Part shown: positions 44,029 to 59,030 of the stretch, piece after piece | How the letters are laid out: every line of letters starts with the position of its first letter | Numbering within the stretch: position 1 is the first letter of the stretch | From: Komagataeibacter xylinus | GTDB lineage: Bacteria > Pseudomonadota > Alphaproteobacteria > Acetobacterales > Acetobacteraceae | Assembly: GCF_009834365.1 (NCBI RefSeq) | Contig: NZ_CP041348.1 | Span: 2,765,001-2,829,000 of the forward strand | Direction of reading: 5' to 3' | Length of the DNA: 64,000 nt | Made by a program: the position numbers and the translations under genes | The notes under the pieces: generated by a model | Told to the model about the DNA's origin: nothing | Databases searched by the model: none | The model's input: the letters and a program-made list of their open reading frames with translations, nothing else

Positions 44029-44058
44029 CTGATACCTTGAAAGCATTGATCGTGAACC

Positions 44059-44078
44059 ATATAAGCATTGGATTATAT
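44059..44078. promoter_or_regulatory. AT-rich dyad between LysR and AEC transporter genes
   Basis: ATATAA and TTATAT are separated by eight bases, 50 bp upstream of the transporter start. This is a typical place and composition for a LysR recognition site. Confidence 0.4.
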
Positions 44079-44127
44079 CAATAGCGTTCAGTAGCGTCAC
44101 GCTTTTGCTGACCTCCCGAGATTTTTG

Positions 44128-45069
44128 ATGCTGAACAATCTGCTGATCGTCCTGCCTATCTTTGCCCTCATCCTTACCGGATGGATCGCACGCAAATCGG
44201 GTGCGCTCGGCCCCAATGCCACGCGCGAAGTCAATCGGCTGGTGGTCTATCTCGCACTGCCCGCGGTGCTGTTCGACATCGTGGCAAATGCAAAAATGAC
44301 CGATCTGTGGGAGCCGGGATTCATTACAGCGTTCACGCTTGGCTGTTTTATCGTGTTTGCCGGGACGCTGTGGTGGCGGGTCTCAACAGGACATCATCTT
44401 GCCGATGCCGCCATTGACGGACTGAACGCAAGCTACGCCAATACGGGGTTTGTCGGTTTCCCGCTCGTCCTGTCGCTCGTCGGCGATACCGGCATGGCGC
44501 CGACCCTCATCGCCACGATCGTGACGGTCTGTGTGCTGTTTGTCATAGCGATCGTTTTGATCGAGGCCGGACTGCAGACCGAAGCACGGCCGCGCGACAT
44601 TGTCGCGAAAACGCTCTTCTCGCTGGTGAAAAATCCATTGCTGGTGGCGCCAGCACTTGGTGGCCTGGTCATGGTATCCGGTGGGCATCTGCCGGAACCC
44701 GTTCATGCCTTCCTGAAGCTTCTCGGCGGGGCTGCATCCCCCTGCGCCCTGATCGCCCTCGGTCTGTTCCTTGCCGGAAATTCCGCCGGTGCCGCATCTG
44801 CACGCCTGTCGACCGCTGCCATTCTTGTCAGCCTGAAGCTGATCGCCCAACCTCTGGTTACGTGGATCATTGCAGCACCCGTGCTCCACCTCCCTCCGGC
44901 GATGACAAACATTGCGGTGCTTCTTGCCGCACTGCCCACGGGAACCGGCTCGTTCATGCTGGCAGAATTCTATGACCGGGAGGCAGCCCTTACCGGGCGT
45001 GTCGTTCTGGCCTCCACCGTGCTCTCGATTGCAACGATCTCGCTCTATCTCGCTTTTGCGCCCATGTAG
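44128..45069 (+). CDS. AEC-family (auxin efflux carrier-like) transporter
   Basis: A 313-residue inner-membrane carrier with about ten helices. It is typical of the AEC family, which in bacteria includes malonate, malate and other organic-acid transporters. Features: LIVLPIFALILTGWIARKSG at the start, NRLVVYLALPAVLFDIVA, the duplicated middle NASYANTGFVGFPLVLSLVG, and LPTGTGSFMLAEFY near the end. Its 3' end overlaps the convergent LysR gene by 25 bases. The substrate is unknown. Probably controlled by the divergent LysR protein. Confidence 0.87.
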   Translation: MLNNLLIVLPIFALILTGWIARKSGALGPNATREVNRLVVYLALPAVLFDIVANAKMTDLWEPGFITAFTLGCFIVFAGTLWWRVSTGHHLADAAIDGLNASYANTGFVGFPLVLSLVGDTGMAPTLIATIVTVCVLFVIAIVLIEAGLQTEARPRDIVAKTLFSLVKNPLLVAPALGGLVMVSGGHLPEPVHAFLKLLGGAASPCALIALGLFLAGNSAGAASARLSTAAILVSLKLIAQPLVTWIIAAPVLHLPPAMTNIAVLLAALPTGTGSFMLAEFYDREAALTGRVVLASTVLSIATISLYLAFAPM

Positions 45070-45977
45070 GGACGCTCACTCGCATTGTGGTGAAGTCGCG
45101 GGCCAATAATCTCCACCAGCCAGTCCACGAACACACGCACGCGCGGAGAAAGCTGCCTGTTGCTTGGATAAAGCACAGAAACCGGCGTGGGCGCGGGTGG
45201 AAAATCAGGGAGGACTTCGATCAGCGTGCCATTTGCAAGGTCATCCTCACAGCCATAGCGCGGTACCTGCACGAGGCCAAAGCCAAGCCTGGCCGCTTCG
45301 GCATAGGTATCAACACCTCCGACCAACAGGCGCGCCGGAAGCGAAATCTCGATCACCTCCTCTCCGCGCGTAAACTCCAGTGGCAGGGTCTGGCCGGTGC
45401 GTGAGGACACGAAGCCAATCATCTGATGGCCCTCAAGATCAGCGGGAGAGGCAGGCATTCCGTGCCGCGCCAGATAGGTCGGGCTCGCAACCGTCATCTC
45501 CTTCATAACGCCAAGGGGGCGGACAATCATTTCGCTATCCGGCAGGCTCCCGGTCCGGACCACGCAGTCCACCCCTTCGCGCACCAGATCGACAAACCGC
45601 TCGCCCTCGCCAAGATGAACGGTCAGCGCCGGATGACGGGCCAGGAAGTCCGGCAATGCTGGCAGCAGGGTCATACGCGCCAGACGCCCAATGACGTCAG
45701 CGCGCAGCAGGCCGGCCACAGCACCACTCGCACCACGATCGGCATCTTCAAGGTCCGCCAGGATCGCCACACACCGGCGATAATAGGCAGCGCCTTCCTC
45801 CGTTGGCCGAACGTGGCGGGTGGAACGGTGCAGCAGTCGGGTGCCGAGCCTTTGCTCCAGCGCCTTGATCGCGGCGGTGGCAACCGGGCGGGAGATGCCG
45901 CAATCGGCTGCGGCGGCGCTAAAGCTGCTGCGGTCAACAATGCGGACGAAGAGGTCGAGTGTGGCAAGCCTGTCCAT
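45045..45977 (-). CDS. LysR-family transcriptional regulator (SDR-linked)
   Basis: A 310-residue regulator with the N-terminal winged helix (LFVRIVDRSSFSAAAADCGI, then SRPVATAAIKALEQRLGTRL). The effector domain is typical of the CrgA/PecT group (DCVVRTGSLPDSEMIVRPLG, GFGLVQVPRYGCEDDL). It is divergent to an SDR gene with a perfect 12-bp palindrome between them, and its 3' end overlaps the AEC transporter gene tail to tail. Confidence 0.88.
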   Translation of the reverse strand: MDRLATLDLFVRIVDRSSFSAAAADCGISRPVATAAIKALEQRLGTRLLHRSTRHVRPTEEGAAYYRRCVAILADLEDADRGASGAVAGLLRADVIGRLARMTLLPALPDFLARHPALTVHLGEGERFVDLVREGVDCVVRTGSLPDSEMIVRPLGVMKEMTVASPTYLARHGMPASPADLEGHQMIGFVSSRTGQTLPLEFTRGEEVIEISLPARLLVGGVDTYAEAARLGFGLVQVPRYGCEDDLANGTLIEVLPDFPPAPTPVSVLYPSNRQLSPRVRVFVDWLVEIIGPRLHHNASERPYMGAKAR

Positions 45978-46012
45978 GGGATTATTCCATGGCGCAAAAC
46001 AATGCTGACGGA

Positions 46013-46024
46013 AAGAGCGCTCTT
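46013..46024. promoter_or_regulatory. Perfect palindrome between LysR and SDR genes
   Basis: AAGAGCGCTCTT is a perfect 12-bp palindrome, 55 bp upstream of the SDR start in the 101-bp divergent gap. It is a candidate LysR operator. Confidence 0.35.
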
Positions 46025-46078
46025 ATCGAACGGCCAACGTTGTGACCAGAATTGCCCCCTCACCCGTTGGAGATTTCT

Positions 46079-46840
46079 ATGCCTGAAGCAGACATCATTG
46101 CCATTGTCACCGGCGGCAGCCGTGGACTGGGCCGCGCAACCGTTGAAGCCCTCGCCCGACGCGGCGTCTCATCAATCCTGACCTATCACACCAACAGATC
46201 CGCAGCCGATGAGGTGGTCGATAGTGTCGAACAGAGCGGCGCCCGCGCAGTGGCCCTGCAACTCGACACCGGCGACACGCACTCCTTTCCCGCCTTCGCC
46301 GACGAAGTCCGCAGCGTGCTGCGCGAATGGGGTGCGGAGCATTTCAATTATCTGGTCAACATGGCCGGTACGTCCCATAGCGGGCTGTTTGGCGAGGTGA
46401 CGGAAGAGGATTTTGATGCCGCCTATCGCGTGCACGCCAAAGGTCCGTTTTTCCTGACGCAGACGCTACTGCCACTGATCGCGGATGGTGGCCGGATCGT
46501 GAACATCTCATCCGGTCTGACGCGCTTTGCTTATCCCGGCCGGATTGCCTATGCCGCCATGAAGGGCGCGGTAGAAGTCATGACGCACTACATGGCCAAG
46601 GAACTCGGGGCCCGTCGCATTGCCGTCAACACAGTGGCGCCGGGTGCGATCCAGACGGATTTCTCGGGAGGTATGGTGCGGGACAATCCGGACATTGCCC
46701 GGCATATTGCAGAAGTAACCGCACTCGGACGTCCCGGCCTTCCTGACGACATCGGCCCGATGATCGCCTCCCTGCTGTCCGAAGACAATCGCTGGGTGAA
46801 CGCGCAGCGGATCGAAGTCTCCGGTGGCCAGGCCATCTGA
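46079..46840 (+). CDS. Short-chain dehydrogenase/reductase (FabG-like)
   Basis: A 253-residue SDR with the cofactor motif TGGSRGLGRAT, NMAGTSHSG after strand 4, the catalytic Ser region NISSGLTRF, and Tyr-x-x-x-Lys as YAAMK. The C-terminus VNAQRIEVSGGQAI is typical of the classical family. It reduces or oxidises a carbonyl/alcohol with NAD(P)(H); FabG-like form does not imply fatty acid synthesis. The ATG at 46079 follows TTGGAG. Probably controlled by the divergent LysR protein, and convergent to the Nit1C cluster. Confidence 0.87.
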   Translation: MPEADIIAIVTGGSRGLGRATVEALARRGVSSILTYHTNRSAADEVVDSVEQSGARAVALQLDTGDTHSFPAFADEVRSVLREWGAEHFNYLVNMAGTSHSGLFGEVTEEDFDAAYRVHAKGPFFLTQTLLPLIADGGRIVNISSGLTRFAYPGRIAYAAMKGAVEVMTHYMAKELGARRIAVNTVAPGAIQTDFSGGMVRDNPDIARHIAEVTALGRPGLPDDIGPMIASLLSEDNRWVNAQRIEVSGGQAI

Positions 46841-46878: not shown

Positions 46879-48651
46879 TCAGGATACCAGCAGACGTTTG
46901 CGTGTAATCTTGCCAGATACGGTGGTCGGCAGGTGACTGACGAAGCGGACTTCTTTCAGACCAATCCAGCGCCCGAGGACTTCATTGACCCGTGCTACGA
47001 TTTCCTCGGCAGAAGGTGCGCATTCCACCTCGGGATCAGGAACCACGTAGGCGACAGGTCGCTGCCCCCGCAGTTCATCCGGGGTTGCGACCACGGCGCA
47101 GGCATGAACGGCAGGGTTAGAAGCGATGATCTTTTCGATCTGCACGCCCGAAATCCGCCGGCCTGCGACCTTTATGACGTCGTCAGAACGCCCGAGCATA
47201 TGAACGGCGCGGTTGGCCTCGATCATGCCTTCGTCGAAGGTGCGATAATACCTGCGTGTTTCATCAAGATACGCTGCAGGAGCACGGATCGCCCTGTCCT
47301 TCCAGACACCCGCCAGACAGCCAGGGGGCAACGGCAGGGAGAGAACAATCTCGCCGCACCGTTCCTCCGGTATGGACGGCACTATGGCCGGACGGAATCC
47401 CGGTGCAGGCCGCCCGATGTCATTCATGAGCGCCACCGGTTCACGCTCGGCCAGGCCGAAGAAATGCGCGGTGATGCTCCACCCGGTTTCGGTCTGCCAC
47501 CAGTGATTGACCACGGGTTTGCGAAAATACGACCGCGCCCAGTCGAGCAAGGTAGGATCCGCATATTCCCCGGCTACGAAGATGCAGGCGAGTGCTGGCA
47601 GGATCGCTCCTGACAGATGACGGCTCTCCTGTCGCGTAAGTCGCATCTGGGTAGGCGTGGTGAACAGGCATTTTACCTCGTGCTCATGGCAGAGCGCGCG
47701 GATCGCGGAAGCCGATGCGCTCCCCTCCACGATCATACTCGTGCAGCCGCTGATCAGCGGCGCATAGACACCATAGGAATGACCGACGACCCAGCCGAGA
47801 TCGGACGTAGTAAAGAAAGTATCGCCGGGTTCGCAGCCATAGATCAGTTCCATGGACAGCGCGAGCGCCACGGCATGGCCGCCATTGTCACGCACAATGC
47901 CCTTCGCATTCCCTGTCGTTCCAGATGTATGAAGAATATATAATGGATCTTCTGATTGCAGCGTGACCGGATCAACTGGGGCAGATTGTTCCAGCGTATG
48001 GAAATCATGATCCCGCATCGGCAGAAGCGAAGCTGAACAGGCCGCTCGTTGTGCGATTATGCATGCATGCGGCCTATGCGTCGCTTCGGCCAGCGCCTCA
48101 TGCAGGGTGGGCGCAGACGGGATGGACGTCTGCCCATGAAAGCTGCAACTGGCGATGATAATGACTTTCGGGGCCACATCATCAATCCTGCGCGCCAGTT
48201 CCGGCCCCGCATAACCGGCAAAAACCACCACATGCACGGCTCCGATCCGCGCACAGGCCAGCATGGCGATGGCTGTTTCGATCATGGTCGGCATGGCAAT
48301 CAGGACACGGTCGCCCTTCCCTACCCCCAGCGAGCGCAGCCCACCGGCAAACCCGGCCACCCTGCCCTGTAGTTCCCGGTAGGTTACCATCTGCCGTTCT
48401 TTTGTGGCGCAGGAATGCCAGATCAGCGCCGCCTGCCCGCAGCGTCCATCCTGCACATGCCGGTCCACGGCATTGTAGCAGGTGTTGAGCGTGGCGTCGG
48501 GAAACCAGTCATGCCAGCCATCCGCCCGCGTTCTGCATGCGATTCCAGGTGCCTGCTTCCATGTGATGCGCCGTGCGGCATCCAGCCAGAATGCCTCTGG
48601 CTGGTTCAGGGCTGCGTCATACATCGCTTCATATGTTGTCCATGCAAGCAT
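46879..48651 (-). CDS. Acyl-CoA synthetase, acetate/propionate-CoA ligase type, at the end of the Nit1C operon
   Basis: A 590-residue adenylate-forming ligase that activates a short carboxylic acid with ATP and CoA. It has the N-terminal ACS domain (WHDWFPDATLNTCYNAVDRH), the AMP-binding loop YILHTSGTTGNAKGIVRDNG, FTTSDLGWVVGHSY, the NHWWQTETGW motif that shapes the acyl pocket, and GRSDDVIKVAGRRIS. The acetylatable lysine is in TVSGKITRK. It resembles PrpE-type propionyl-CoA synthetases. It starts 15 bp after the flavoprotein gene on the same strand, so it is co-transcribed with the nitrilase cluster. I do not know this gene as a standard Nit1C member. A product acid of the cluster is one possible substrate. 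Confidence 0.88.
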   Translation of the reverse strand: MLAWTTYEAMYDAALNQPEAFWLDAARRITWKQAPGIACRTRADGWHDWFPDATLNTCYNAVDRHVQDGRCGQAALIWHSCATKERQMVTYRELQGRVAGFAGGLRSLGVGKGDRVLIAMPTMIETAIAMLACARIGAVHVVVFAGYAGPELARRIDDVAPKVIIIASCSFHGQTSIPSAPTLHEALAEATHRPHACIIAQRAACSASLLPMRDHDFHTLEQSAPVDPVTLQSEDPLYILHTSGTTGNAKGIVRDNGGHAVALALSMELIYGCEPGDTFFTTSDLGWVVGHSYGVYAPLISGCTSMIVEGSASASAIRALCHEHEVKCLFTTPTQMRLTRQESRHLSGAILPALACIFVAGEYADPTLLDWARSYFRKPVVNHWWQTETGWSITAHFFGLAEREPVALMNDIGRPAPGFRPAIVPSIPEERCGEIVLSLPLPPGCLAGVWKDRAIRAPAAYLDETRRYYRTFDEGMIEANRAVHMLGRSDDVIKVAGRRISGVQIEKIIASNPAVHACAVVATPDELRGQRPVAYVVPDPEVECAPSAEEIVARVNEVLGRWIGLKEVRFVSHLPTTVSGKITRKRLLVS

Positions 48652-48666
48652 GGCGCTGTCCTCCGC

Positions 48667-49920
48667 TCAGGCTACGGGCACGTGTTTGCCGGTGATCTGG
48701 CTGGCCAGCCATGCAGCATCGCGCGAAACACCGGAGAACCGTCCCGATCCCCATGTGTGCAGCCACGGCAGGCCGAGGAAGTAGAATCCCGGCGCGTCGG
48801 TCACGCCGCGATGCCAGACCGGCTTGCCCGCCCCACTGAAAACCGGCACGTCGATCCAGCGATAGTTCGGGCGGAAGCCGATGCACCAGACGATCGAGGT
48901 GATGCCTGCGGCCTTCAGGTCCAGCGGCGCATTGCTACGATCGGGCTCCCAGATGGGTACATAGGGCGCTTCGGTGGGGGCACTAATCCCTTCGCGGGCG
49001 ATATAGGCGTCAATGGACTGCTTGATATCGGCATTGGTCCTGTCCGCATCATCAAGGTTTTCCGCAAGATCCGGCGCGAAGTGTGCGATTTCGTCACGGA
49101 TGGTCTCAAGCGTGCCATGCAGGCCCACGCCCTCCATGGCAAAGAGGCGCAGGTCAAGATCATGGCCGCCATTCCGGCCCGTGACATAATGATTGGTCTT
49201 GTCGCGTGCGCCGTCACGCAGGGGGTGATTATCTACCGTCAGGTCATAGAAGTGCATGTCCGCAAGCCAGTCCACAACGTCGCGGCCACGATAGAAGCGC
49301 GAGACACGCGGGGCGGAACCGACACACAGATGAACCTTGCGTTTTTCAAGGAACAGGTCCTCGACAATCTGCGCGCCGGACTGGCCGCTGCCCACGACCA
49401 GAACCGCGCCGTCCGGAAGCTGGGCGGCATTGCGGTAATCCTGCGAGTGGACCTGATGGATGGCGGGGTCGATCGCGCTGGCATAGCCGGGGATGACCGC
49501 GTCCTGATAGGCACCTGACGCGATGACAACATGTTTCGCGTGCCACGCCTCACCACCTGCTACCACGTGGTAGCCACCACTTTCATGGCGCGTGATGGAG
49601 GTGACAGCCGTGTGTTCACGCAGCGGTGGATTGAAGGACACAACAAAGCCTTTGGCGTAGTCGATAATTTCCTGCTTCACCATGAAGCCGTGAGGATCGC
49701 TCCCTTTGTAGGGATGCCCTGGGAGTGCGCACTGCCAGTTTGGCGTGACCAGGCAAAAATTGTCCCAGCGTTCGTCATCCCACGAATGGCAGGCCGTCTT
49801 TGCCTCAAAGACAATGTGCTCCACCTTCTCGCGGCAGAGATACCAGCTCATCGAGAGCCCGGCCTGTCCGCCACCCACGATGATGACGGGGATGCTTTTT
49901 TCGTTCTGTGACATGGTCAT
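48667..49920 (-). CDS. Nit1C flavin-dependent monooxygenase (MSMEG_0569-like)
   Basis: A 417-residue FAD/NADPH flavoprotein of the FMO/TrkA-like type. It has the N-terminal VIIVGGGQAGLSMSWYL FAD fold, the DERWDNFCLVTPNWQCALPG segment conserved in this subfamily, a second dinucleotide fold VLVVGSGQSGAQIVEDLF, and the C-terminal GFYFLGLPWLHTWGSGRFSG. MSMEG_0569-type members occur with the nitrilase cluster and are called NitH in the Pseudomonas nomenclature as I recall it. It should oxygenate a cluster intermediate. I chose the ATG at 49920 where homology begins; a longer frame overlaps the preceding gene. Confidence 0.88.
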   Translation of the reverse strand: MTMSQNEKSIPVIIVGGGQAGLSMSWYLCREKVEHIVFEAKTACHSWDDERWDNFCLVTPNWQCALPGHPYKGSDPHGFMVKQEIIDYAKGFVVSFNPPLREHTAVTSITRHESGGYHVVAGGEAWHAKHVVIASGAYQDAVIPGYASAIDPAIHQVHSQDYRNAAQLPDGAVLVVGSGQSGAQIVEDLFLEKRKVHLCVGSAPRVSRFYRGRDVVDWLADMHFYDLTVDNHPLRDGARDKTNHYVTGRNGGHDLDLRLFAMEGVGLHGTLETIRDEIAHFAPDLAENLDDADRTNADIKQSIDAYIAREGISAPTEAPYVPIWEPDRSNAPLDLKAAGITSIVWCIGFRPNYRWIDVPVFSGAGKPVWHRGVTDAPGFYFLGLPWLHTWGSGRFSGVSRDAAWLASQITGKHVPVA

Positions 49921-49930
49921 TCTTTTCGTC

Positions 49931-50218
49931 TCAATAACTGAAAGACAGGACGCGCACCTGCGCATCGGGTCGATTGAGGAAGGGCGTACTGGCCTGTCGA
50001 ATGGCATGCAGCTGGCCAAGGGCGCGGCTGCACGGAAAGCCGTAGCGCGCACGAACCCGCTCGCTGGCTTCCGTCAGGGCCGTATCCGCCTTTTCAAGAA
50101 ACTCCCGGACCGGATAGTCCTGACCGGGCATGAAATGGTCTCTTATGACCAGTGATGGGGAGTAACAGTCGGTCTCCTTCCCATCGGGCCAGCACACGCG
50201 AAAGGTCATTTCGGGCAT
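49931..50218 (-). CDS. Nit1C small protein (MSMEG_0570-like)
   Basis: A 95-residue protein of the MSMEG_0570 type, found with nitrilase clusters in mycobacteria and other bacteria and associated with nitrogen starvation. Recognisable features: MPEMTFRVCWPDGKETDCYS, VIRDHFMPGQDYPVREFLEK and RARYGFPCSRALGQL. Two conserved cysteines are visible; no enzymatic motif is known. It overlaps the glycosyltransferase gene by 13 bases and is followed by the monooxygenase gene ten bases later. Confidence 0.86.
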   Translation of the reverse strand: MPEMTFRVCWPDGKETDCYSPSLVIRDHFMPGQDYPVREFLEKADTALTEASERVRARYGFPCSRALGQLHAIRQASTPFLNRPDAQVRVLSFSY

Positions 50219-51384
50219 GGTGACGAAACTCCTGAAGCATGGACGCCAGCGTGCTGCAGCGCCGCGAGACGCCGGTATGCGGGGATGTGCCGGCCAGCGA
50301 CGTTGCGCCAGTCGAAACGATGGGCGGTTGCGGGACCGCTGATCCGGAAATGGTCACGACTTTTGATGCTCAGCGCGTCACGCAAGGCCACCAGCAGGGT
50401 TTCGGGGCGCGCCAGGTCACACCACAGCGCATCCGCTTGCGAGAGGTGCCCGGTAAAGGGCGCGATTTCTGGCACAATGGCAGGCGTGCCGCAGGCCAGT
50501 GCTTCCAGCGGGCACAGGCCGAACCCTTCTGTTATGGACGGATAGGCCAGCACATCCGCCTGCCGGTAGAATGAAGGCATGTCTTCATCCGCAACCGGTC
50601 CGGTTATGGTCACGTGATCCGCTGCACCGCTTTCGTGCAGACGTGCCGCGAACAGCGTCCGGTAGGCAGAATGATCCAGCAATGAAGCCCCGCCCGCCAC
50701 AACCAGATGCACATCAGGCTGTTCGCGGCGAAGGGCCAGAAACGCGTCGAGCAGTTGCAGGGTATTCTTGCGCCGCTCGATCCCGCCCACGGACAGGATC
50801 AGGCGACGGTCAGTCGGCAGACGATACCGTGCCCGCAGCGAGGCATCGTGCGTGGTTGGTGCGGGCGAAAAGCGCACGGGATCGACCCCGTTGCCGACGA
50901 CGGGGGCCTCGCGACCATGTTCGTCACGCAGGATGCCTGCCCACAGGGGACTGACGGTAAAGAGTTCGGTCGCCGCCATGAAGCCCCGCTCCTGTCGCGC
51001 GGCAAGGACGGGGTGGGAGAAACGGTCGAGATGGTGGACCGTGCGGGCAAAGCCCGGTATCCGCCCCTTTTCCACCAGATCGGCCAGCGCATTGGCGCTG
51101 ATGGGGTCCTGCGCATGCAGCACGTCAAAATGCTGCCCATGCAGTGCGTCCCTGATTTCACCAATGCGGCGCTCCACCAGCGTTGACAGATCGCTCTCCG
51201 GCACAGCCGGAATACAGTATATGGCGCAGCGGGGCGTGCGGAAGAAACCGGCTCCTGTTACGTCCGGCGCGATGAGCGTTGCGTCATGGCGCGCGTCACA
51301 CAGGGCTTCCGCCAGCGCCATGCCGTGCACCACACCGCCGCGCGGATTGGTCGAATGGGTCAGGATGCCAATGGACAGACTCAT
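50206..51384 (-). CDS. Nit1C glycosyltransferase, GT4 type (MSMEG_0565-like)
   Basis: A 392-residue GT-B glycosyltransferase. N-terminal acceptor half: IGILTHSTNPRGGVVHGMAL, with FDVLHAQDPISANAL. C-terminal donor half: ILSVGGIERRKNTLQLLDAF, then VLAYPSITEGFGLCPLEALA with the E-x7-E retaining GT4 motif. It transfers a sugar from a nucleotide sugar to an unknown acceptor. Presence of a glycosyltransferase suggests the cluster makes or decorates a small molecule rather than only degrading nitriles. Start overlaps the AIRS-like gene by four bases. Confidence 0.88.
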   Translation of the reverse strand: MSLSIGILTHSTNPRGGVVHGMALAEALCDARHDATLIAPDVTGAGFFRTPRCAIYCIPAVPESDLSTLVERRIGEIRDALHGQHFDVLHAQDPISANALADLVEKGRIPGFARTVHHLDRFSHPVLAARQERGFMAATELFTVSPLWAGILRDEHGREAPVVGNGVDPVRFSPAPTTHDASLRARYRLPTDRRLILSVGGIERRKNTLQLLDAFLALRREQPDVHLVVAGGASLLDHSAYRTLFAARLHESGAADHVTITGPVADEDMPSFYRQADVLAYPSITEGFGLCPLEALACGTPAIVPEIAPFTGHLSQADALWCDLARPETLLVALRDALSIKSRDHFRISGPATAHRFDWRNVAGRHIPAYRRLAALQHAGVHASGVSSPCPK

Positions 51385-52352
51385 GGCGTAAACCCCATGA
51401 GCGGCGTCCGGGCCAGATCCCAGAAGGTTTCCTTCTCATCCGTCCATGTGACATCCACACGCCGCGTCTCATTGCACTGGCCGATGGCAGAAGCTGCAAT
51501 GCCCCGCCCATGAAAGCGGGCGATGACCGCATCCGCATCTTCGGGATGCACCGTGAGCAGATAGCCATAGCTGGGGAATGCGGACAGCCAGCGTTCCATA
51601 GGCGCGGCATCGGGGCGTGGAATATCATCAAGCGTGATCGTCATGCCCACGCCTGAACATTCAGCCAGCATAAGGGCGGTGCCCAGCAGTCCGGCCATGC
51701 TGATGTCCTTGGCGGCACGGCTCAGCCCATCCTCGGCTATGCACGGAAGAAGTTCGAGATCCCCCCGCAGACGTGCCGCCCCGTCGGTGCCGCACAGGGC
51801 TGAGCTTGCATCCCAGAACGGGTGCGGGTCATGCCAGCGGCCACGCAGGTCGATGGCGGCGATCAGCACCTCGCCCGGTCGGGCATCGAAGCTGGTCAGC
51901 AGATGACGGGCACGGCCAAGGATCGCCACCGACAGCGAGTTGTGAGTGCTGCGCATGTTGGTATGGCCGCCGACCACAGGCACGTCATAGGTGCGTGCTC
52001 CATCATGCAGACCCGTCAGGATGGACGCGGCCGCCTCGGACGTATCGCTCCACAACGTATCCACCACGGCCACGGGACGGCCTCCCATGGCCGCGATATC
52101 GCTGACATTGACCATCACGCCGCAATACCCGGCAAACCACGGCATTGAGCGGACAAAGCTGTCCTGAAATCCCTCACTGGCCAGCAGAAGATAGCCGTTA
52201 CCGTCCGGAATTGCAGCGCAGTCATCGCCAAGGCGGATGGCATCAGGATTTGCAGGCTTCAGGATCGCAGCCGCTTCAGCAATATCCTGTTTGCCCGCAA
52301 GGGCGCGACCATGGCGGAGCGTGCGCAGCAGTGTGGCAAGTTGATGTGCCAT
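51381..52352 (-). CDS. Nit1C AIR-synthase-like protein (Sll0787-like)
   Basis: A 323-residue member of the PurM/SelD/ThiL ATP-binding superfamily, in the Sll0787 branch specific to nitrilase clusters. It has DAIRLGDDCAAIPDGNGYLL near residue 45 (the phosphate/metal-binding aspartates), MVNVSDIAAMGGRPVAVVDT, and DISMAGLLGTALMLAECSGV. It likely phosphorylates or cyclises a cluster intermediate with ATP, by analogy to AIR synthase. I placed the start at 52352, sharing one base with the GNAT stop; a start 14 codons earlier lacks support. Confidence 0.87.
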   Translation of the reverse strand: MAHQLATLLRTLRHGRALAGKQDIAEAAAILKPANPDAIRLGDDCAAIPDGNGYLLLASEGFQDSFVRSMPWFAGYCGVMVNVSDIAAMGGRPVAVVDTLWSDTSEAAASILTGLHDGARTYDVPVVGGHTNMRSTHNSLSVAILGRARHLLTSFDARPGEVLIAAIDLRGRWHDPHPFWDASSALCGTDGAARLRGDLELLPCIAEDGLSRAAKDISMAGLLGTALMLAECSGVGMTITLDDIPRPDAAPMERWLSAFPSYGYLLTVHPEDADAVIARFHGRGIAASAIGQCNETRRVDVTWTDEKETFWDLARTPLMGFTP

Positions 52353-52915
52353 CACGCCACCTGCCGGTTGCGCGGCTGCGGACGTAGCAGCCAAGTCTGA
52401 TCCTGACCGTGTGCCGGATAGCGCGCAAGGTCGGCCTGCATGTCGTGATGTGGCAGGCCGTGCAAGGTTATGGTGCCAAGGCTTTTCCAGTGCAGGCGGC
52501 GGAAAAACAGCACGTTCTGCTCCTGCACCTGCGCCAGAAACTGCGTGGCCCCAAACCCGTGCGCCGTGCTGACTGCCATGCGGATGAGTTCCGCCCCGAT
52601 CCGGCCCAGTTTGCGGTGACCTTCATGCACGGCCAGACGGGAACCGCGCCACACACCGGGCTCGGCTTCATGGATGCGCACTGCTCCTACCACCCGGTCC
52701 GGCATGCCCGCCATGCAGCACGCCGCGATGATGGGAATGGCAACTGCGTCAGTTGCATCCCGATCGTCGTCCGCAAACACCTGCTGTTCGGTGCAGAACA
52801 CTTCGCGGCGCAGCGCGTGATAGCCAGCCCTTTCCCACGGCGTGCGGGCAAGACGCACAACATATTCCGTGGGAATGAACGGCCGGTCTTCCACGCCTTC
52901 GAGCATCTCACTCAT
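52352..52915 (-). CDS. Nit1C GNAT-family N-acetyltransferase (Sll0786/MSMEG_0567-like)
   Basis: A 187-residue acetyltransferase. The N-terminus EYVVRLARTPWERAGYHALR, with EVFCTEQQVFADDDRD, is typical of the nitrilase-cluster GNAT branch. The acetyl-CoA pyrophosphate loop is about HRKLGRIGAELIRMAV, preceded by RGSRLAVHEG. Some mycobacterial homologues are longer and fused to the AIRS-like domain; here the two are separate genes with touching ends. It probably acylates an amine intermediate. The ATG overlaps the radical SAM stop codon as ATGA, so the start at 52915 is preferred to the longer frame. Confidence 0.87.
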   Translation of the reverse strand: MSEMLEGVEDRPFIPTEYVVRLARTPWERAGYHALRREVFCTEQQVFADDDRDATDAVAIPIIAACCMAGMPDRVVGAVRIHEAEPGVWRGSRLAVHEGHRKLGRIGAELIRMAVSTAHGFGATQFLAQVQEQNVLFFRRLHWKSLGTITLHGLPHHDMQADLARYPAHGQDQTWLLRPQPRNRQVA

Positions 52916-54021
52916 TGTTCGTACGCCGACAGCGAGGAACAGGCGCCACACCGGCCACACCCCGCCCGGATGTCGGTGGATTTCATGTTTGCCTCGCGTA
53001 GCATCCGGCCCAGCGGCGCCAGCACGGATTTCATGAACTCGGCCGAAGGCGGCGCGTGATTTTCCAGCGGTGTGCCGGAAATGGGCACGAACGGCACGAC
53101 GAAGGGATAGACCCCGAGCGCAATCAGGCGTTCGGCCAAAGCCAGAATGTGTTCGGCGCTGTCGCCAAGACCGGCCAGAATGTAGGTATTGACCTGCCCG
53201 CGCCCGAAGACCGGCACGGCGGACGCAAAAGCATCCATGTAGCGATCGACGCTGACCGTGGCCTTGCCGGGCATGATCTTCTCGCGCACGGCCTGTGTTG
53301 CGGCTTCGAGGTGCATGCCCAGACTGTCGGCCCCCGCCTCGCGCAGGCGCTGGAACCAGCCGTGATCGCGCGGCGGCTCGCACTGCACCTGAAGCGGCAG
53401 ATCCACCGCCGCCTTGATGGCACGGGCTGATTCCGCCAGCACGGCAGCGCCCCGATCAACCACGTTGGGTGTCCCGGTTGTCAGCACCATATCGCGCACG
53501 CCGTCCAGCTCCACGGCGGCTTTTGCAACTTCGGCCAGTTGCGCGGGCGTCTTGTAGGCAATGGTGCGGTCGGCTTCGAGCGACTGGCCGATGGCGCAGA
53601 ACTGGCACGACGTGCGCCGGTCGGCATAGCGGATGCAGGTCTGGTGCACCGTGGTGGCCAGCGTGTCGCGGCCATGCAGAAGGGCGATCTTCCAGTAAGG
53701 AATGCCGTCCGCCGTGCTCAGGCCATAAAAGCGCGGAGCCCTCGGAAAATGGATTGTGCCCAGCGTCTGGCCATCACGCAGCAGCGTGCTTGTCCCACTC
53801 TGGTCAGGCGGACTGGCCTGAAACGGAGACCGTCGTGCACCAGATGTATAAACCGGGACCATGACTGTCTGACCCGCGATGGTGATCGTCTTGTGGTCGG
53901 AAGGGCCGGCCCCACCCTTGCGGGCGATACCCCCGGTCTGCTCACCGATCTGAAGCCCGAAGGATTGCAGGTCAGTGACGAGCCTGCGGCCGGAAAGCGT
54001 GCCGAGTGTCGGAACAGTCAT
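52912..54021 (-). CDS. Nit1C radical SAM protein (MSMEG_0568-like)
   Basis: A 369-residue radical S-adenosylmethionine enzyme. The cluster-binding cysteines are Cys129, Cys139 and Cys142, a C-x9-C-x2-C spacing instead of the usual C-x3-C-x2-C. The C-terminus ends with Cys355, Cys358 and Cys361 (C-x2-C-x2-C), which may hold a second iron-sulfur cluster. The middle follows the biotin-synthase-like barrel ([48 protein letters not shown]). The reaction is unknown. It is in the same operon as the nitrilase, with an ATGA overlap, and is the most informative gene for finding the cluster product. Confidence 0.9.
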
Positions 54022-55001
54022 GACGCAACCTCGTCATTGGAGGGACCAACCGGCCCAGTTGCTCCATGCTCACCAACATAGTGCACCGTGCGTGCGGGCC
54101 GCCGGTCCTGCAGCAGGCTGAGCAATTCCGGGCGTGCATAATGCCCCACGGAATCCATCATCCGCTTGCGCTTGGTGATTAGGCCGAAGTCGAGATCGGC
54201 AATCACCATCCCCTCGCCTTCCGTCAGGGGTGTGCCCAACAGCTTGCCTTCAGGTGAGACGATGGCGGTGAAGCATCCACCTCGCAACGGCCCTTCCAAT
54301 GCAGGGTCGTCGGCTATTTCCTTGATCTGCTCTTCCGTCAGCCAACCCGTGGCGTTCACCACAAAGCAGCCTGATTCCAGCGCGTGGTGGCGGATGGTGA
54401 CTTCCATCTGGTCGGCGAAGATCTGGCCTACCAGCGAGCCGGGGAACTGCGCGCAGTGGATTTCCTCGTGCTGGGTCATCAGCGCGTAGCGGGCGAGCGG
54501 GTTGTAATGCTCCCAGCACGCCAGCGCCCCGATGCGCCCGGCCGCACTTTCCACCACTTTCAGCCCCGAACCATCCCCCTGCCCCCAGACCATGCGCTCA
54601 TGGTAAGTGGGCGTGATCTTGCGGCGCTTGAGCAGGATTTCACCTGTGGCGTCGAAGATGATCTGCGTGTTGTAAAGCGTACCGAAATCCCGCTCGTTCA
54701 CGCCCAGCACCACGACCATGCCGGTGTCGCGGGCGGCTTCAGCCACCATGTCGGTTACCGGACCGGGGATGACGACAGCGCGTTCGTAGAGCTCCAGATG
54801 CTCGCCGCCGAAGCGGAAAGCGGGCTGGATGAACGAGAAATAGGGATAATAGGGCACGAAGGTTTCGGGAAAGACCGCCAGCGCAACGCCTTTTTCGGCG
54901 GCATCGCGGATGGCCTGGCAGACTTTCCGGGCAGTCCCCAGACCATCATCACCAAGGACGGGGCTGATCTGGATGGCTGCGGCGCGAACGATACGGGGCA
55001 T
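54018..55001 (-). CDS. Nit1C nitrilase (Sll0784-like)
   Basis: A 327-residue carbon-nitrogen hydrolase. The catalytic triad is visible as Glu46 ([14 protein letters not shown]), Lys128 ([20 protein letters not shown]) and Cys162 ([15 protein letters not shown]), with the nitrilase-specific CWEHYNPL. Members of the Nit1 branch hydrolyse nitriles to acids and ammonia. In Pseudomonas fluorescens the cluster is required for growth on cyanide, with 2-aminonitriles as proposed substrates. The ATG at 55001 follows the NitB-like gene by 24 bp, and the 3' end overlaps the radical SAM gene. Confidence 0.93.
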
Positions 55002-55025
55002 GGCGTGCGGTCCTCCCTTCGGCCT

Positions 55026-55508
55026 TCAGAGAGTCCAGGTGTTCAGGATGAAAGCGTTGTCGCGGCGGGCCAGCAGGATGATGTCGAGCACGTCCTGCGG
55101 ATTGATCGGCGTAATGCCGGGGATCAGGTTCTGCTCGCCGTAGCCATAAAGGGCCTGAAGCGCGAAGCGGCAGGCATAGACCTTGCCGCCCTCTTCAAGG
55201 ATTTTTGCGATCTGTCTGTTGCAGTTCATGTGCCCCGGAAAGGCCTCATCGCCCAGGCGGGGAAAGCCGCGCTGCACGCCAAGGGTCACACCCGGACCAT
55301 ACAGCAGCACCGACGTCTCGAATCCCTTGCGGATCAGGCGGGTAGCCTGCAGCAGGTTGACGAACCCGACGGAGCCTTCATTGGCGACGGTGTGGAAGGT
55401 GATGAGGGCTTTTTCGCCGGGTCTGGCTTTGACGTCCTCAAAGACCTTGTTTTCATAATTGACGAAGCAGTCGCCATCTTTATGCGGAGCGTGTTCGACT
55501 TTCGGCAT
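55026..55508 (-). CDS. Nit1C first gene, Sll0783/MSMEG_0572-like protein
   Basis: A 160-residue protein conserved as a member of nitrilase clusters; the cyanobacterial homologue Sll0783 is induced by nitrogen starvation and affects polyhydroxybutyrate formation. Sequence features: [20 protein letters not shown], then [40 protein letters not shown] and [20 protein letters not shown]. The pattern resembles a DsrE-like fold with two conserved cysteines. No enzymatic activity is established. It is the first gene of the operon, with the promoter region in the following 340-bp gap. Confidence 0.9.
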
Positions 55509-55848
55509 GGTATCTCTCCCGTGTGCTGCGGTCTACGGCGGGGAGCCGGGACTGACCGCGTTGCCGAGGCGAACGTGGCACGGGATGGCGGAGAGCCAAA
55601 ATATTGTATGCCTTAAAATTAAGGTACAAACGGATCAAATTAAATTGCATGCCGTTCTCCCACCAGGATAGGAGCATACAAAAAATATACGCAAGCCATA
55701 CAATATCGGGATGTGATTATAAGTGACTGTTTTGAAAGGATCTTATAATCACGCAGTCGTGAATGAAGTGCCTTTTTGTTTTTCCATGTGCCTGCATGGC
55801 ATGCCCCGGAATCTGGTGCCTCCATCGATTCCGGGCATTGCGGTCAGG
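55509..55848. promoter_or_regulatory. Promoter/regulatory gap of the Nit1C operon
   Basis: This 340-bp AT-rich gap holds no gene. It contains ATATTGTATG at 55601-55610 and its exact inverted copy CATACAATAT at 55697-55706. A perfect 11-bp inverted repeat (GTGATTATAAG at 55713-55723 and CTTATAATCAC at 55742-55752) follows. The CATACAAT core recurs upstream of the MocR gene (57300-57307). These look like binding sites of the MocR-type regulator, with one larger dyad that could be an operator or a transcript hairpin. Confidence 0.55.
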
Positions 55849-57252
55849 TCACACAATATCGGCAAAACCGGGGGAACGTTTGTGCCGCAGCACTGACAGC
55901 ACCCCGTGCAGGGATTCCTCAAGGCTTGTGGCATCCGGCGCGCTGCCCAGTGCAATCCGCGCCCGCTGCGGGGGTTCCCCACTGATGGTGAAAACGGTAC
56001 TGGGCACCAGCGCCAGACCCCGCCTGCGGGCATAAGCCACAAAATCCGCACTGCCCCACCAGTCCGGCAATTTCAGCCAGACATGTGGCCCGTCGGGGTT
56101 CATGCAGTGCCCTTCTCCCAGTACCTTGCGGGCAATGGACTGGCGCAGGCGCAGTTCCTTGCGGATGGCATGCAGGATTGTATGCGCCTGCTCTGTCTGC
56201 ATCCATCGCGCCGTGAGTGCGCTGAGCAGACCGGCATTGGTCAGGGCTATGGCCCGGATGGCCGCCGTAACCCGTCGGGTCATTTCCGCATTGGGCAGGG
56301 CCACATAGGCAGTGCGCAGGCCCGGGCTGAGCGTCTTGGCGAGGGTAGCTACATAACTGACACGGCTATGATCAAGGGCCGCCAGCGCCGGGAGCGGATT
56401 GTCCATCAGCAGGCTGTAAGGGTCGTCTTCAGTAATATGCAGATGATGGCGTTGGGCGACCTTCAGGATGTCCTTGCGCCTTTGCAGCGACATCGTGGCC
56501 GTGGTGGGATTGTGAATGGTGGGGATGCAGTAGAGCAGCCGGGGATGATGTTCGGCGCAGACCCGGTCAAGCTGGTCCGGCATCATGCCTTCCATGTCGC
56601 TGTCCACGCCGACCAGAATAAGGTCGAACTGCGCCGCTATGGTGCGAATGCCAGGGTAGGCAATGCGATCAGTTACGATAACATCACCTGGCTGCGTGTG
56701 CGTGCTGACAATTGCCGCAAGTGCACTCTGGGCACCCGGTGAGACAAGGATTTCGTCCGTTCGCCTCTGACCGATCGCGGGCGCAATCCATTTTGCGCCA
56801 AGCTGGCGCTCCTCCAATGTGCCGCCCGTTACCCGGTAGGACATCAGGCTGTTCAGATCCTGCTGTTTCAGGATGGCTGCAATGTCGCTCTGGATAATGC
56901 GTTGAAGCGGCGGTTCCTGCGGAATTGGCGGCAGGTTCATGGTCAGGTCAACTACAGCCGGTCCCGTATGGCGCCAGTGGCTTTCTCCGGCGCCAACACG
57001 GATAAAGGTGCCACGGCCGACAGTCGCGTCAATCAGGCCACGCCGCCGGGCCTCGGCAAACGAACGGGTCACGGTAGTCAGATTTGTGCCAAGATAGTCC
57101 GCGATCGTGCGCTGTGGTGGCAGCCTGTCCCCTTCCCTCAGCTCACCCTTGCGGATGGAAAGCGCCAGGGCATCGGCCAACGTCATGTAAATCGCGTTCG
57201 GACTCCGGCTGATCTCTTCTTTCCAGTGGGCCAGATAGGGGTATGCGGACAT
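55849..57252 (-). CDS. MocR-family transcriptional regulator (GntR HTH fused to aminotransferase fold)
   Basis: A 467-residue regulator. The GntR-type winged helix lies at about residues 15-85 (MTLADALALSIRKGELREGD, then LPPQRTIADYLGTNLTTVTR). A class I aminotransferase-like domain follows, with HNPTTATMSLQRRKDILKVA and the PLP-anchoring lysine in ATLAKTLSPGLRTAYVALP. MocR regulators sense PLP or PLP-amino-acid adducts and control amino-acid or vitamin genes. It lies upstream of the Nit1C operon on the same strand, and CATACAAT motifs occur before both. It is a plausible activator of the cluster. I use the ATG at 57252; upstream TTG starts are less likely. Confidence 0.88.
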   Translation of the reverse strand: MSAYPYLAHWKEEISRSPNAIYMTLADALALSIRKGELREGDRLPPQRTIADYLGTNLTTVTRSFAEARRRGLIDATVGRGTFIRVGAGESHWRHTGPAVVDLTMNLPPIPQEPPLQRIIQSDIAAILKQQDLNSLMSYRVTGGTLEERQLGAKWIAPAIGQRRTDEILVSPGAQSALAAIVSTHTQPGDVIVTDRIAYPGIRTIAAQFDLILVGVDSDMEGMMPDQLDRVCAEHHPRLLYCIPTIHNPTTATMSLQRRKDILKVAQRHHLHITEDDPYSLLMDNPLPALAALDHSRVSYVATLAKTLSPGLRTAYVALPNAEMTRRVTAAIRAIALTNAGLLSALTARWMQTEQAHTILHAIRKELRLRQSIARKVLGEGHCMNPDGPHVWLKLPDWWGSADFVAYARRRGLALVPSTVFTISGEPPQRARIALGSAPDATSLEESLHGVLSVLRHKRSPGFADIV

Positions 57253-57299
57253 GAGATGGAATTTCCATACATTCGATGAGATTCCATTCGACCATATAC

Positions 57300-57307
57300 C
57301 ATACAAT
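57300..57307. promoter_or_regulatory. CATACAAT box upstream of the MocR gene
   Basis: This is the same octamer as in the Nit1C promoter gap (55603-55610 inverted and 55697-55704), 48 bp upstream of the MocR ATG. Sharing of the box suggests autoregulation plus control of Nit1C. An ATGGAA-T-TTCCAT palindrome at 57256-57268 adjoins the start codon. Confidence 0.4.
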
Positions 57308-57421
57308 CCGTGCAATAATGGTCGATACAGATTAGGGTTGGGTGTCCCCTACCGGTAATCCACGCCAATCCATAGCGATAATGTCCTGTCCGAAGATTTG
57401 GACTGACGAAGCGATGATTTT

Positions 57422-58165
57422 TGACGTGCCTCCTTTTTTGTATCTACTCAAAAGGAGAGTTCCCGTTTTTTATGGCTTGAGGTTGATGGAATGACAGGGG
57501 TCTCGGAAGCATGCCCCCGAGACCCTTGTCTGGCGATCTGATCCGGTGTCCTGCCATCCAGTTGGGAATGTGGGCGCACCGAATTGTAGCATTCCCGCCA
57601 GTCAGCCAGAATCTGGCGGGCATGCGTCAGGGACGTGAACAGCGTTTCGTTGAGACATTCATCCCTGAACCGACCATTGAAGCTTTCGACAAAACCGTTC
57701 TGCTGCGGCTTCCTTGGGGCGATATAATGCCATTCGATCTGCATCTCGTCGGCCCGTTTCAGGATGGCATGGGGCGTGAACACCGTTCCGTTGTCGCTGA
57801 CAATCATGAGGGGTTTGCCATATCGCTCCACCAGAGCCGTCAGTTCTCGCGCCACACGTCTGCCTGACAGCGATGTATCGGCAACCAATGCCAAGTTCTT
57901 GCGACTGAAATCGTCGATAACAGCCAGAATGCGGAACCGGCGACCACAGATCAGGGTATCCGAGACAAAATCCAGGCTCCAGCGCTGCCCGGGTTCTTGA
58001 AGATGGTCATGGGAGAACGCGTCCCCAGTGCGCGCTTTCGGCCTCTCCGATGACGGGCTTTCAGGCCCTCTTCCTGATAAAGGCGGAACAGCTTCTTGTG
58101 ATTGGATATGAGGCCTTCCAGCGCCTTCAGCCGTTTGGCTGCGGACACCTCAAGACCACAGGCTT
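57422..58165. mobile_element. IS3-family (IS407-group-like) remnant
   Basis: The right end probably begins near TGACGTGCCTCC at 57422, close to the IS407-type terminal sequence. The element carries only a frameshifted, 5'-truncated OrfB; OrfA and the other end are missing, with homology stopping near 58165. The coordinates of the left end are approximate. Confidence 0.6.
57448..58165 (-). pseudogene. IS3-family transposase OrfB, frameshifted and truncated
   Basis: Two frames together encode an IS407-type integrase-like transposase. Upstream frame: [20 protein letters not shown] and [16 protein letters not shown]. Downstream frame: [55 protein letters not shown] and [16 protein letters not shown]. 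The D, D and E of the DDE triad are present in the second frame. The frames break near 58008, just after PMTI. Homology is lost upstream of about 58165. Confidence 0.78.
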
Positions 58166-58208: not shown

Positions 58209-59030
58209 TTATTTGAAGTTTTGCTTATGTTTTCTATGTCGTACCCATCTTGCCGTATCAATAATAAAATGCGGCATTATGTTTCGTATGAATATTTCTG
58301 CTATCTGCATGGTCGATTGTCTGTTGTTCGATAAGTAAGTTGTGTTTTGTGCGGCTCTACTGGTTTTTATTTTTGGTGCCGTGTAAAAATATGTAATGAG
58401 CGTGCGCCGCACGTGCCCTGCTTGCGTGGCCTGAGGATGTCCATGCCATGAATCAGGTGACTGGAGCATGAGCACACTGCGCCCGAACCGGGGAACAATT
58501 TTCCTGACAGGCTGGGGTGGATTTTTTTGCCACAGTTCCAGCAGGCCGCCATATTCCGGCTTCCAGTCATGATTGAGATAAGTCAGTAAAACCAGTCGAT
58601 TTTCCAGATATGTATGGGGGTGATGACGAAAATCGGTATGGACCTGAAAATGTCCCTCCCCCGCGACTTCGTGCATGCCGCCCCCATAAAAATACGGATC
58701 AGGAAGCAGATTCGTGATTCCTGTCAGTCTGGTCAGTAGCCGCAGGAATGGCGCGCTATTCACGATATCAAAATACTGTTGTATTGCTGCAGGCATGACG
58801 GATTTTGTGCTGGTCGAACGCTTTGACTGAAGCTGATTCTGGAACACATTTATATTATTTACATGATCAAGATTAAAGGCCTGCAACGCTTCGTTCAGCA
58901 GGGCATGACTGAACATTCCATCTATGACCAGATGCGGAAATGGCCTGGCCGTCGTAAACTCCTGTGCAAGTTTACTTAGAAGGGAGGTATCGGACCGGTG
59001 CATTTCTTTTAACAAGGGTACGTACGACAT
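58209..59030 (-). CDS. 2OG-Fe(II) oxygenase, prolyl-4-hydroxylase-like
   Basis: A 273-residue non-heme iron dioxygenase. The iron ligands are visible as His-x-Asp in GHFQVHTDFRHH and the distal His in SPDSWHGHP. The 2-oxoglutarate-binding arginine is in HVRRTLITYFYT. N-terminal YVPLLKEMHRSDTSLLSKLA, then FTTARPFPHLVIDGMF, fits the family that hydroxylates proline or small molecules and lipids. The gene is AT-richer than the surrounding island and has an unrelated C-terminal tail of about 45 residues rich in Arg, His and Lys. It is followed by a NERD-like gene upstream on the same strand. Substrate unknown. Confidence 0.82.
   Translation of the reverse strand: MSYVPLLKEMHRSDTSLLSKLAQEFTTARPFPHLVIDGMFSHALLNEALQAFNLDHVNNINVFQNQLQSKRSTSTKSVMPAAIQQYFDIVNSAPFLRLLTRLTGITNLLPDPYFYGGGMHEVAGEGHFQVHTDFRHHPHTYLENRLVLLTYLNHDWKPEYGGLLELWQKNPPQPVRKIVPRFGRSVLMLQSPDSWHGHPQATQAGHVRRTLITYFYTAPKIKTSRAAQNTTYLSNNRQSTMQIAEIFIRNIMPHFIIDTARWVRHRKHKQNFK

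Follow-up and report, generated by a model that had tools for sequence, protein, structure and literature searches.

An intact Nit1C operon in Komagataeibacter xylinus and its putative control by an adjacent MocR-type regulator

The DNA analyzed here, called the window, is a stretch of 64,000 nucleotides of Komagataeibacter xylinus (positions 2765001-2829000 of contig C1 in a genome of four contigs and 3.98 Mb in total). Within it, positions 46879-57252 (all coordinates are positions in the window) contain an intact and complete Nit1C operon, made up of a gene for a MocR-type regulator and nine further genes on the minus strand. It is reasonably probable that this operon serves the use of cyanide and small nitriles as nitrogen sources as well as cyanide tolerance, and that it is controlled by a dedicated MocR protein dependent on pyridoxal 5'-phosphate (PLP). 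This interpretation, drawn from sequence comparisons and from analogy to related systems, is suggested because eight core families exceed their cut-offs and the nitrilase is Nit6803-like with a catalytic triad. In Pseudomonas, moreover, the nitrilase NitC is required for cyanide use and assimilation, and Nit1C proteins are induced by a cyanide-containing residue and by 3-cyanoalanine (PMC8567248, PMC11049912). Control by MocR is suggested by the adjacency of its gene, by operator-like boxes and by their covariation with the recognition helix, while the neighborhood of oxidase genes in relatives and the low ratio of nonsynonymous to synonymous substitutions (dN/dS) between two copies of the cluster also favor the interpretation. 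The intact genes, the predicted catalytic residues, the gene order and the operator-like boxes in front of both the operon and the MocR gene are backed by the sequence.

The nine genes form a run on one strand from 55508 to 46879, beginning with the Sll0783-like gene and ending with an acyl-CoA synthetase gene, as the initial annotation had described. Eight of them exceed the curated NCBIfam cut-offs of families named for Nit1C. They encode a protein of the MSMEG_0572/Sll0783 family (nitB, 55026-55508; TIGR04044, 271 bits, cut-off 110), a Nit6803-family nitrilase (nitC, 54018-55001; TIGR04048, 567, cut-off 503), an MSMEG_0568 family radical SAM protein (nitD, 52912-54021; TIGR04043, 593, cut-off 304), a GNAT N-acetyltransferase (nitE, 52352-52915; TIGR04045, 231, cut-off 68), an AIR-synthase-like (AIRS-like) protein of the sll0787 family (nitF, 51381-52355; TIGR04049, 434, cut-off 321), a GT4-type glycosyltransferase of the MSMEG_0565 family (50206-51384; TIGR04047, 421, cut-off 260), an MSMEG_0570 family protein (nitG, 49931-50218; TIGR04042, 131, cut-off 80) and a flavin-dependent oxidoreductase of the MSMEG_0569 family (nitH, 48667-49920; TIGR04046, 661, cut-off 498). 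All of these except TIGR04047 are the seven core families that define membership in Nit1C, and the description of the set as complete was thus borne out. The ninth gene (46879-48651) codes for an AMP-binding acyl-CoA synthetase resembling acetate/propionate-CoA ligases. The successive gaps between the genes, as first predicted, were 24, -4, -4, -43, -4, -13, 10 and 15 bases. The overlap of 43 bases arose because the start of the AIRS-like gene had been called too early; a GTG start at 52355, which matches annotated relatives, reduces it to four bases, so that the gaps range from -13 to 24. The statement that intervals measure at most about 25 bp throughout therefore holds from the Sll0783-like gene onward, but not for the MocR gene, which lies 340 bases upstream on the same strand. 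None of the ten proteins contained an internal stop, and the integrity of the core genes was thereby upheld.

For comparison, genome contigs were scanned with the radical SAM protein, which yielded 557 relatives. The best 80 were kept, and all locus comparisons were made with these, the two copies of the source genome and three plasmid loci, a set biased toward Acetobacteraceae. The nearest loci belong to acetic acid bacteria, mainly Komagataeibacter and Acetobacter. The arrangement is not due to chance, since the genes present keep one identical order in the 80 loci of other genomes, several of which are interrupted by contig ends. This order is also the one published for Nit1C, with the glycosyltransferase gene placed between those of the AIRS-like and the MSMEG_0570 protein, as reported there for betaproteobacteria (PMC1199592).

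The gene adjoining the operon (55849-57252, minus strand) encodes 467 amino acids with a GntR DNA-binding helix-turn-helix domain and an aminotransferase-like PLP domain (Pfam GntR and Aminotran_1_2), including a predicted PLP lysine, K306, that was kept in all 76 MocR matches passing a coverage filter. Its assignment to the MocR subfamily in the initial annotation is therefore well founded. The best NCBIfam match was EhuR (359 bits, below the cut-off of 480), and EhuR was likewise nearest for all 11 Nit1C MocR proteins tested (359-448 bits, all below 480). Of the 69 loci that offer 2.5 kb or more of upstream sequence, 68, including both copies of the source genome, have a MocR gene adjoining the cluster. 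It is co-directional in 47 cases and divergent in 18, to which three plasmid loci are added from annotation; co-directional genes belong to Acetobacteraceae and divergent ones occur outside this family, apart from two loci (L027 and L058).

The probable operator of MocR is a phased direct repeat of ATTGNNTG, which reads ATTGTATG in the window. In the 340-base intergenic region (55509-55848, minus strand), the box search detected ATTGTATG at a distance of 196 bases from the next gene, TTTGTATG 22 bases beyond this box and an inverted ATTGTATG near -102. The same box was found in 49 of 52 intergenic regions of acetic acid bacteria, two or more times in 34 of them, while shuffled sequences gave a mean of 0.78 loci. 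The variant ATTGA[ACT]TG occurred at 51 sites in all 16 divergent loci (shuffle mean 2.1), and ATTGNNTG in seven of the nine remaining loci (shuffle mean 2.0). In divergent loci the distances between boxes peaked at 11-12 and 23-24 bases, and in the other loci the peak lay at 22 bases, with minor excesses at 28, 32-33 and 10 bases and at 4 bases, the last reflecting self-overlap of ATTG. Direct repeats are often bound by MocR proteins (PMC5320631). The paired box ATTGTATG-N12-16-TTGTATG exists only twice in the whole 3.98-Mb genome, once before each Nit1C copy; as the pattern was built from the site in the window, this match is given by construction and only that of the second copy is independent. 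The reversed pattern produced no match in the whole genome. Furthermore, the fifth base of the box covaries along the phylogeny with one residue of the recognition helix: of 56 loci with the helix TTVTR, 53 have an ATTGT box, two have A at this base and one has C, and of 17 loci with TTVAR, 16 have an ATTGA box and one has no box, 4 of 77 loci being misread by the pattern in this comparison. On the 5' side of the MocR gene, the region 57253-57400 (minus strand) contains ATTGTATGG, and 48 of 52 loci of acetic acid bacteria have ATTGTATG within the 300 bases that precede the MocR gene. Autoregulation through the ATTGTATGG box region is thus possible.

A second regulatory element differs between the lineages. 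Outside Acetobacteraceae, 13 of 17 loci have a perfect -24/-12 site of sigma-54 promoters at a distance of 40-79 bases in front of the Sll0783-like gene. The same applies to four of eight basal Acetobacteraceae and to none of the 54 loci of acetic acid bacteria. The 340-base region of the window contained no sigma-54 site either, its best candidate having three mismatches, and in the source genome no match to rpoN was detected. Since rpoN exceeded the cut-off in 17 of 20 genomes of selected loci, six of them from acetic acid bacteria that lack the site, its absence is not a simple result of the loss of the sigma factor. The site probably reports nitrogen limitation, and we infer that it was lost in acetic acid bacteria rather than gained elsewhere. 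The operon of the window thus lacks the promoter of the NitA/sigma-54-controlled Nit1C type, and as acetic acid bacteria do not have this promoter of their relatives, control may depend mainly on a metabolite signal.

These data also bear on the strongest rival explanation, namely that the cluster chiefly keeps the redox balance during nitrogen starvation and that cyanide use is a consequence. The gpr cluster of Mycobacterium smegmatis raises the NADPH/NADP ratio and confers peroxide resistance (PMC6039565), a Synechocystis mutant in sll0783 is more oxidized and its NADPH pool is disturbed (PMC3901256), and the Sll0783-like protein combines a DsrE-like fold with an invariant cysteine. On the other hand, cyanide assimilation in Pseudomonas requires NitC, some acetic acid bacteria have oxidase genes adjoining the block, and the window lacks a sigma-54 promoter while rpoN was not found in the source genome. 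We therefore regard a primary redox function as rather improbable.

The structure nearest to the nitrilase is that of Nit6803 (PDB 3wuy, E 1.9e-143), and the predicted triad E46-K128-C162, the E-K-C triad of the Nit6803 type found in Nit1C, is conserved in 80 of 81 (E46) and in 81 of 81 sequences (K128 and C162). The usual cysteine motif of radical SAM proteins is CX3CX2C. The protein of the window has CX9CX2C instead, together with C214 and a C-terminal CX2CX2C, and all seven cysteines were present in 83 of 83 loci. It is likely that C214 and CX2CX2C hold a second iron-sulfur cluster. LipS2, PylB and BioB are among the secondary NCBIfam matches of the radical SAM protein. In the MSMEG_0570 protein, C18 (76/79) and C63 (78/79) are highly conserved. 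The AIRS-like protein belongs to the PurM/PurL/HypE superfamily, and the label of an ATP-grasp enzyme had to be abandoned; it also matched the methanogenesis marker 2 protein, an archaeal relative, with 233 bits (cut-off 365). For the Sll0783-like protein, a DsrE/YchN-like fold is predicted. The match to Pfam DsrE (16.1 bits; 13.7-18.3 in three relatives) lies under the gathering score of 22.7. A YchN-like fold was suggested for this type of protein in 2005 (PMC1199592) and a DsrE fold for MSMEG_0572 (PMC6039565). Its residue C113 is invariant in the loci compared. The acyl-CoA synthetase matched 101 families and remained under the cut-offs of each of the 25 that were listed, including those of PrpE/AcsA (NF007815, 511 of 955 bits; TIGR02316, 476 of 827; TIGR02188, 434 of 725). 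In 52 of the 72 loci with sufficient room, its gene lies next to the oxidoreductase gene, among the loci examined only in Acetobacteraceae, and many of the 80 loci do not have it.

How these proteins might cooperate can be outlined as follows. MocR would occupy the phased direct repeats of ATTGTATG and would be released, or turned into an activator, when cyanide or a nitrile of the amine type, for example 3-cyanoalanine, reaches the PLP pocket. The nitrilase would then hydrolyze a nitrile or cyanohydrin to yield ammonium. The radical SAM, GNAT, AIRS-like, flavin-dependent and DsrE-like proteins could make or recycle a helper metabolite, and the acyl-CoA synthetase, an addition within Acetobacteraceae, may feed the GNAT protein. 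It is conceivable, though improbable, that Nit1C makes a small redox metabolite that is N-acylated and ring-closed and carries sulfur. According to this proposal, the DsrE-like carrier would bring the sulfur, which the radical SAM protein (C214 and CX2CX2C) would insert as BioB and LipA do, before acylation by GNAT and closure of an imidazole-type ring by the AIRS-like ATPase. The product would support the NADPH pool and react with cyanide, the nitrilase would recover ammonium, and MocR would read the adduct via PLP. Such a metabolite would unite the separately reported cyanide, peroxide and NADPH phenotypes. The initial annotation had suggested a small secreted or signaling compound derived from a nitrile. 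Enzymes of biosynthetic type, namely radical SAM, GNAT, AIRS-like and glycosyltransferase proteins, are indeed encoded, but NCBIfam and Pfam scans detected no transporter among the ten genes, the glycosyltransferase is missing in some loci and from the original seven-gene core, the phenotypes found reported are nitrogen use and redox balance, and the neighborhood in relatives indicates cyanide handling. The suggestion is accordingly very unlikely.

The distribution of the cluster is patchy, since the Sll0783-like gene exceeded the cut-off in only 33 of 299 sampled genomes of the family, and it was present in 17 of 19 genomes of the genus. At E <= 0.001, the protein had 2786 relatives among 2818 candidates. 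The three loci out of 72 without the glycosyltransferase gene (L057, L058 and L062) all belong to basal Acetobacteraceae, and on comparison of these clusters the enzyme is probably dispensable for the core Nit1C function. Gluconacetobacter diazotrophicus PA1 5, whose cluster has the same ten genes, reportedly has been listed among bacteria growing on cyanide. In the source genome, a second full set including MocR and acyl-CoA synthetase is situated on contig C3 (190,752 bases). The proteins of the two copies are 83-98% identical, and for nine of the ten genes (the AIRS-like gene was left out because of its wrong start) dN/dS was 0.03-0.25 at dS values of 0.26-0.75. In a tree of the 51 loci with all nine proteins, given without support values, the copies fell into separate clades, the C3 copy near plasmid-borne clusters. 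Two diverged Nit1C lineages thus coexist in this genome, both apparently under selection. Another member of the genus (G304) also gave two Sll0783-like matches. In PLSDB, 514 plasmid records contain the gene; 374 of these are from Klebsiella and 30 from Escherichia, and one record, Acetobacter oryzoeni plasmid NZ_CP042809, has it at three places. On a K. medellinensis plasmid, the Nit1C block is flanked by two IS5 transposase genes. The occurrence of copies on plasmids of vinegar and food isolates, oxidase genes beside some copies and the second copy retained in the source genome would also fit a role in detoxifying plant nitriles or cyanogenic compounds from fruit and fermentations without growth on their nitrogen. 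The reported growth of Gluconacetobacter diazotrophicus PA1 5 on cyanide nitrogen speaks against this alternative, which we consider unlikely.

A relation to cyanide is further suggested by genes adjoining related clusters. Oxidases were called cyanide-insensitive-type on the basis of annotated cydAB and a DUF2474 gene, with cydB above the TIGR00203 cut-off; the DUF2474 small subunit marks subtype C of the cyanide-insensitive oxidases (CIO), including the Pseudomonas enzyme (PMC5322542). The cydA/cydB and DUF2474 genes lie directly 3' of the acyl-CoA synthetase gene on the same strand in eight of 47 loci with 3 kb of room and are also present in a locus with less downstream sequence (L021). 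In three of 44 loci (L044-L046), cydAB is divergent from MocR, and its promoter contains two boxes at a distance of 22 bases. The presence of such oxidase genes next to the cluster in some acetic acid bacteria points to cyanide handling. Literature treating acetic acid bacteria, cyanide-insensitive oxidases and nitrilase together was not found among the papers searched.

Several observations weigh against the cyanide and nitrile interpretation. The eight downstream oxidase cases include the locus from which the pattern originated (L088) and two plasmids added later (L093 and L094), the remaining oxidase loci checked had no paired MocR boxes, and an oxidase adjoins neither copy in the source genome, where one is encoded about 106 kb from the second copy on C3 and one on C1. 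As to the regulator, the MocR gene of L029, the only exception to adjacency, is 6 kb away, and none was found in the 1.8 kb of upstream sequence of L060 (Eremiobacterota). The box counts come from related and hence non-independent sequences, and the covariation of helix and box may represent a single evolutionary switch. In addition, the mycobacterial and cyanobacterial phenotypes mentioned above were described, in the excerpts of both papers, without a link to cyanide. Finally, a nitrilase alone would be enough for cyanohydrin hydrolysis, which leaves the additional enzymes unexplained.

The widespread Nit1C cluster has been studied for cyanide use, redox balance in nitrogen starvation and peroxide resistance, all without a product, and none made by the accessory enzymes is described in the parts of the Nit1C literature found, in line with the initial annotation. 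A predicted operator and a regulator class whose ligand is expected to meet PLP, in hosts as tractable as acetic acid bacteria, offer a route to the inducer and then to the product. A ready biosensor would also be at hand, provided that cyanide or a cyano-amino acid is what MocR senses.

The surroundings of the operon are heterogeneous. Downstream, the block 43141-46840 encodes on mixed strands an SDR oxidoreductase, LysR-type regulators and a transporter of the auxin-efflux family. It is common to the second copy and to six Acetobacter loci, and in some lineages it may move together with the operon. Just 5' of MocR (57448-57894), an IS3-type integrase-core frame of 148 amino acids (112 bits, cut-off 160) is apparently a fragment. 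It is followed by genes for a 2-oxoglutarate-Fe(II) oxygenase that weakly matches the peptide-modifying YhhC (58209-59030; 32 bits, cut-off 150) and for a DosP-like PAS-GAF-GGDEF-EAL protein (59859-62462; 712 of 857 bits).

Although the initial annotation ranked it as a candidate for an undescribed pathway, the cluster was defined in 2005 by Podar with a seven-gene core lacking the glycosyltransferase (PMC1199592), and its role in cyanide metabolism is documented (PMC11049912, PMC8567248); the links to cyanide use in Pseudomonas and to nitrogen starvation in cyanobacteria, also put forward in the initial annotation, agree with the literature. By contrast, the regulatory setting of MocR and Nit1C was not found described in the literature searched. 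Those passages that mention both place MocR at an oxidase cluster or treat the subfamily generally without naming it as the Nit1C regulator, and the main text of a MocR regulon survey, as far as available, does not mention nitril or radical SAM. Among characterized regulators, EnuR/EhuR of ectoine use is the nearest NCBIfam family. It shares the PLP lysine, and its consensus ATTGTnnnnnnACAAT has the same ATTGT half-site (PMC8739950). However, the Nit1C MocR proteins stay under its cut-off of 480, their boxes are mostly direct instead of inverted repeats, and the operon of the window contains no ectoine gene. The gpr cluster of M. smegmatis (MSMEG_0565-0572) comprises eight genes, the namesakes of the MSMEG_ families found in the window; it is under the control of GlnR, and its reported phenotype is peroxide resistance and NADPH balance (PMC6039565). 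The mocR gene of Pseudomonas lies beside the oxidase cluster and codes for its repressor, a statement partly based on unpublished data of the authors (PMC8567248). Its likeness to L044-L046, where MocR is also encoded beside cyanide-insensitive-type oxidase genes, is one of gene position, and in the excerpt of that paper this MocR is not described as a regulator of Nit1C. The closest counterpart is nitABCDEFGH of Pseudomonas pseudoalcaligenes CECT5344, which has the same seven structural families and the same type of nitrilase (PMC11049912). The operon of the window differs from it by the additional glycosyltransferase and acyl-CoA synthetase and by its regulator, which is NitA, a sigma-54-dependent Fis-type activator, in CECT5344 and MocR in the window.

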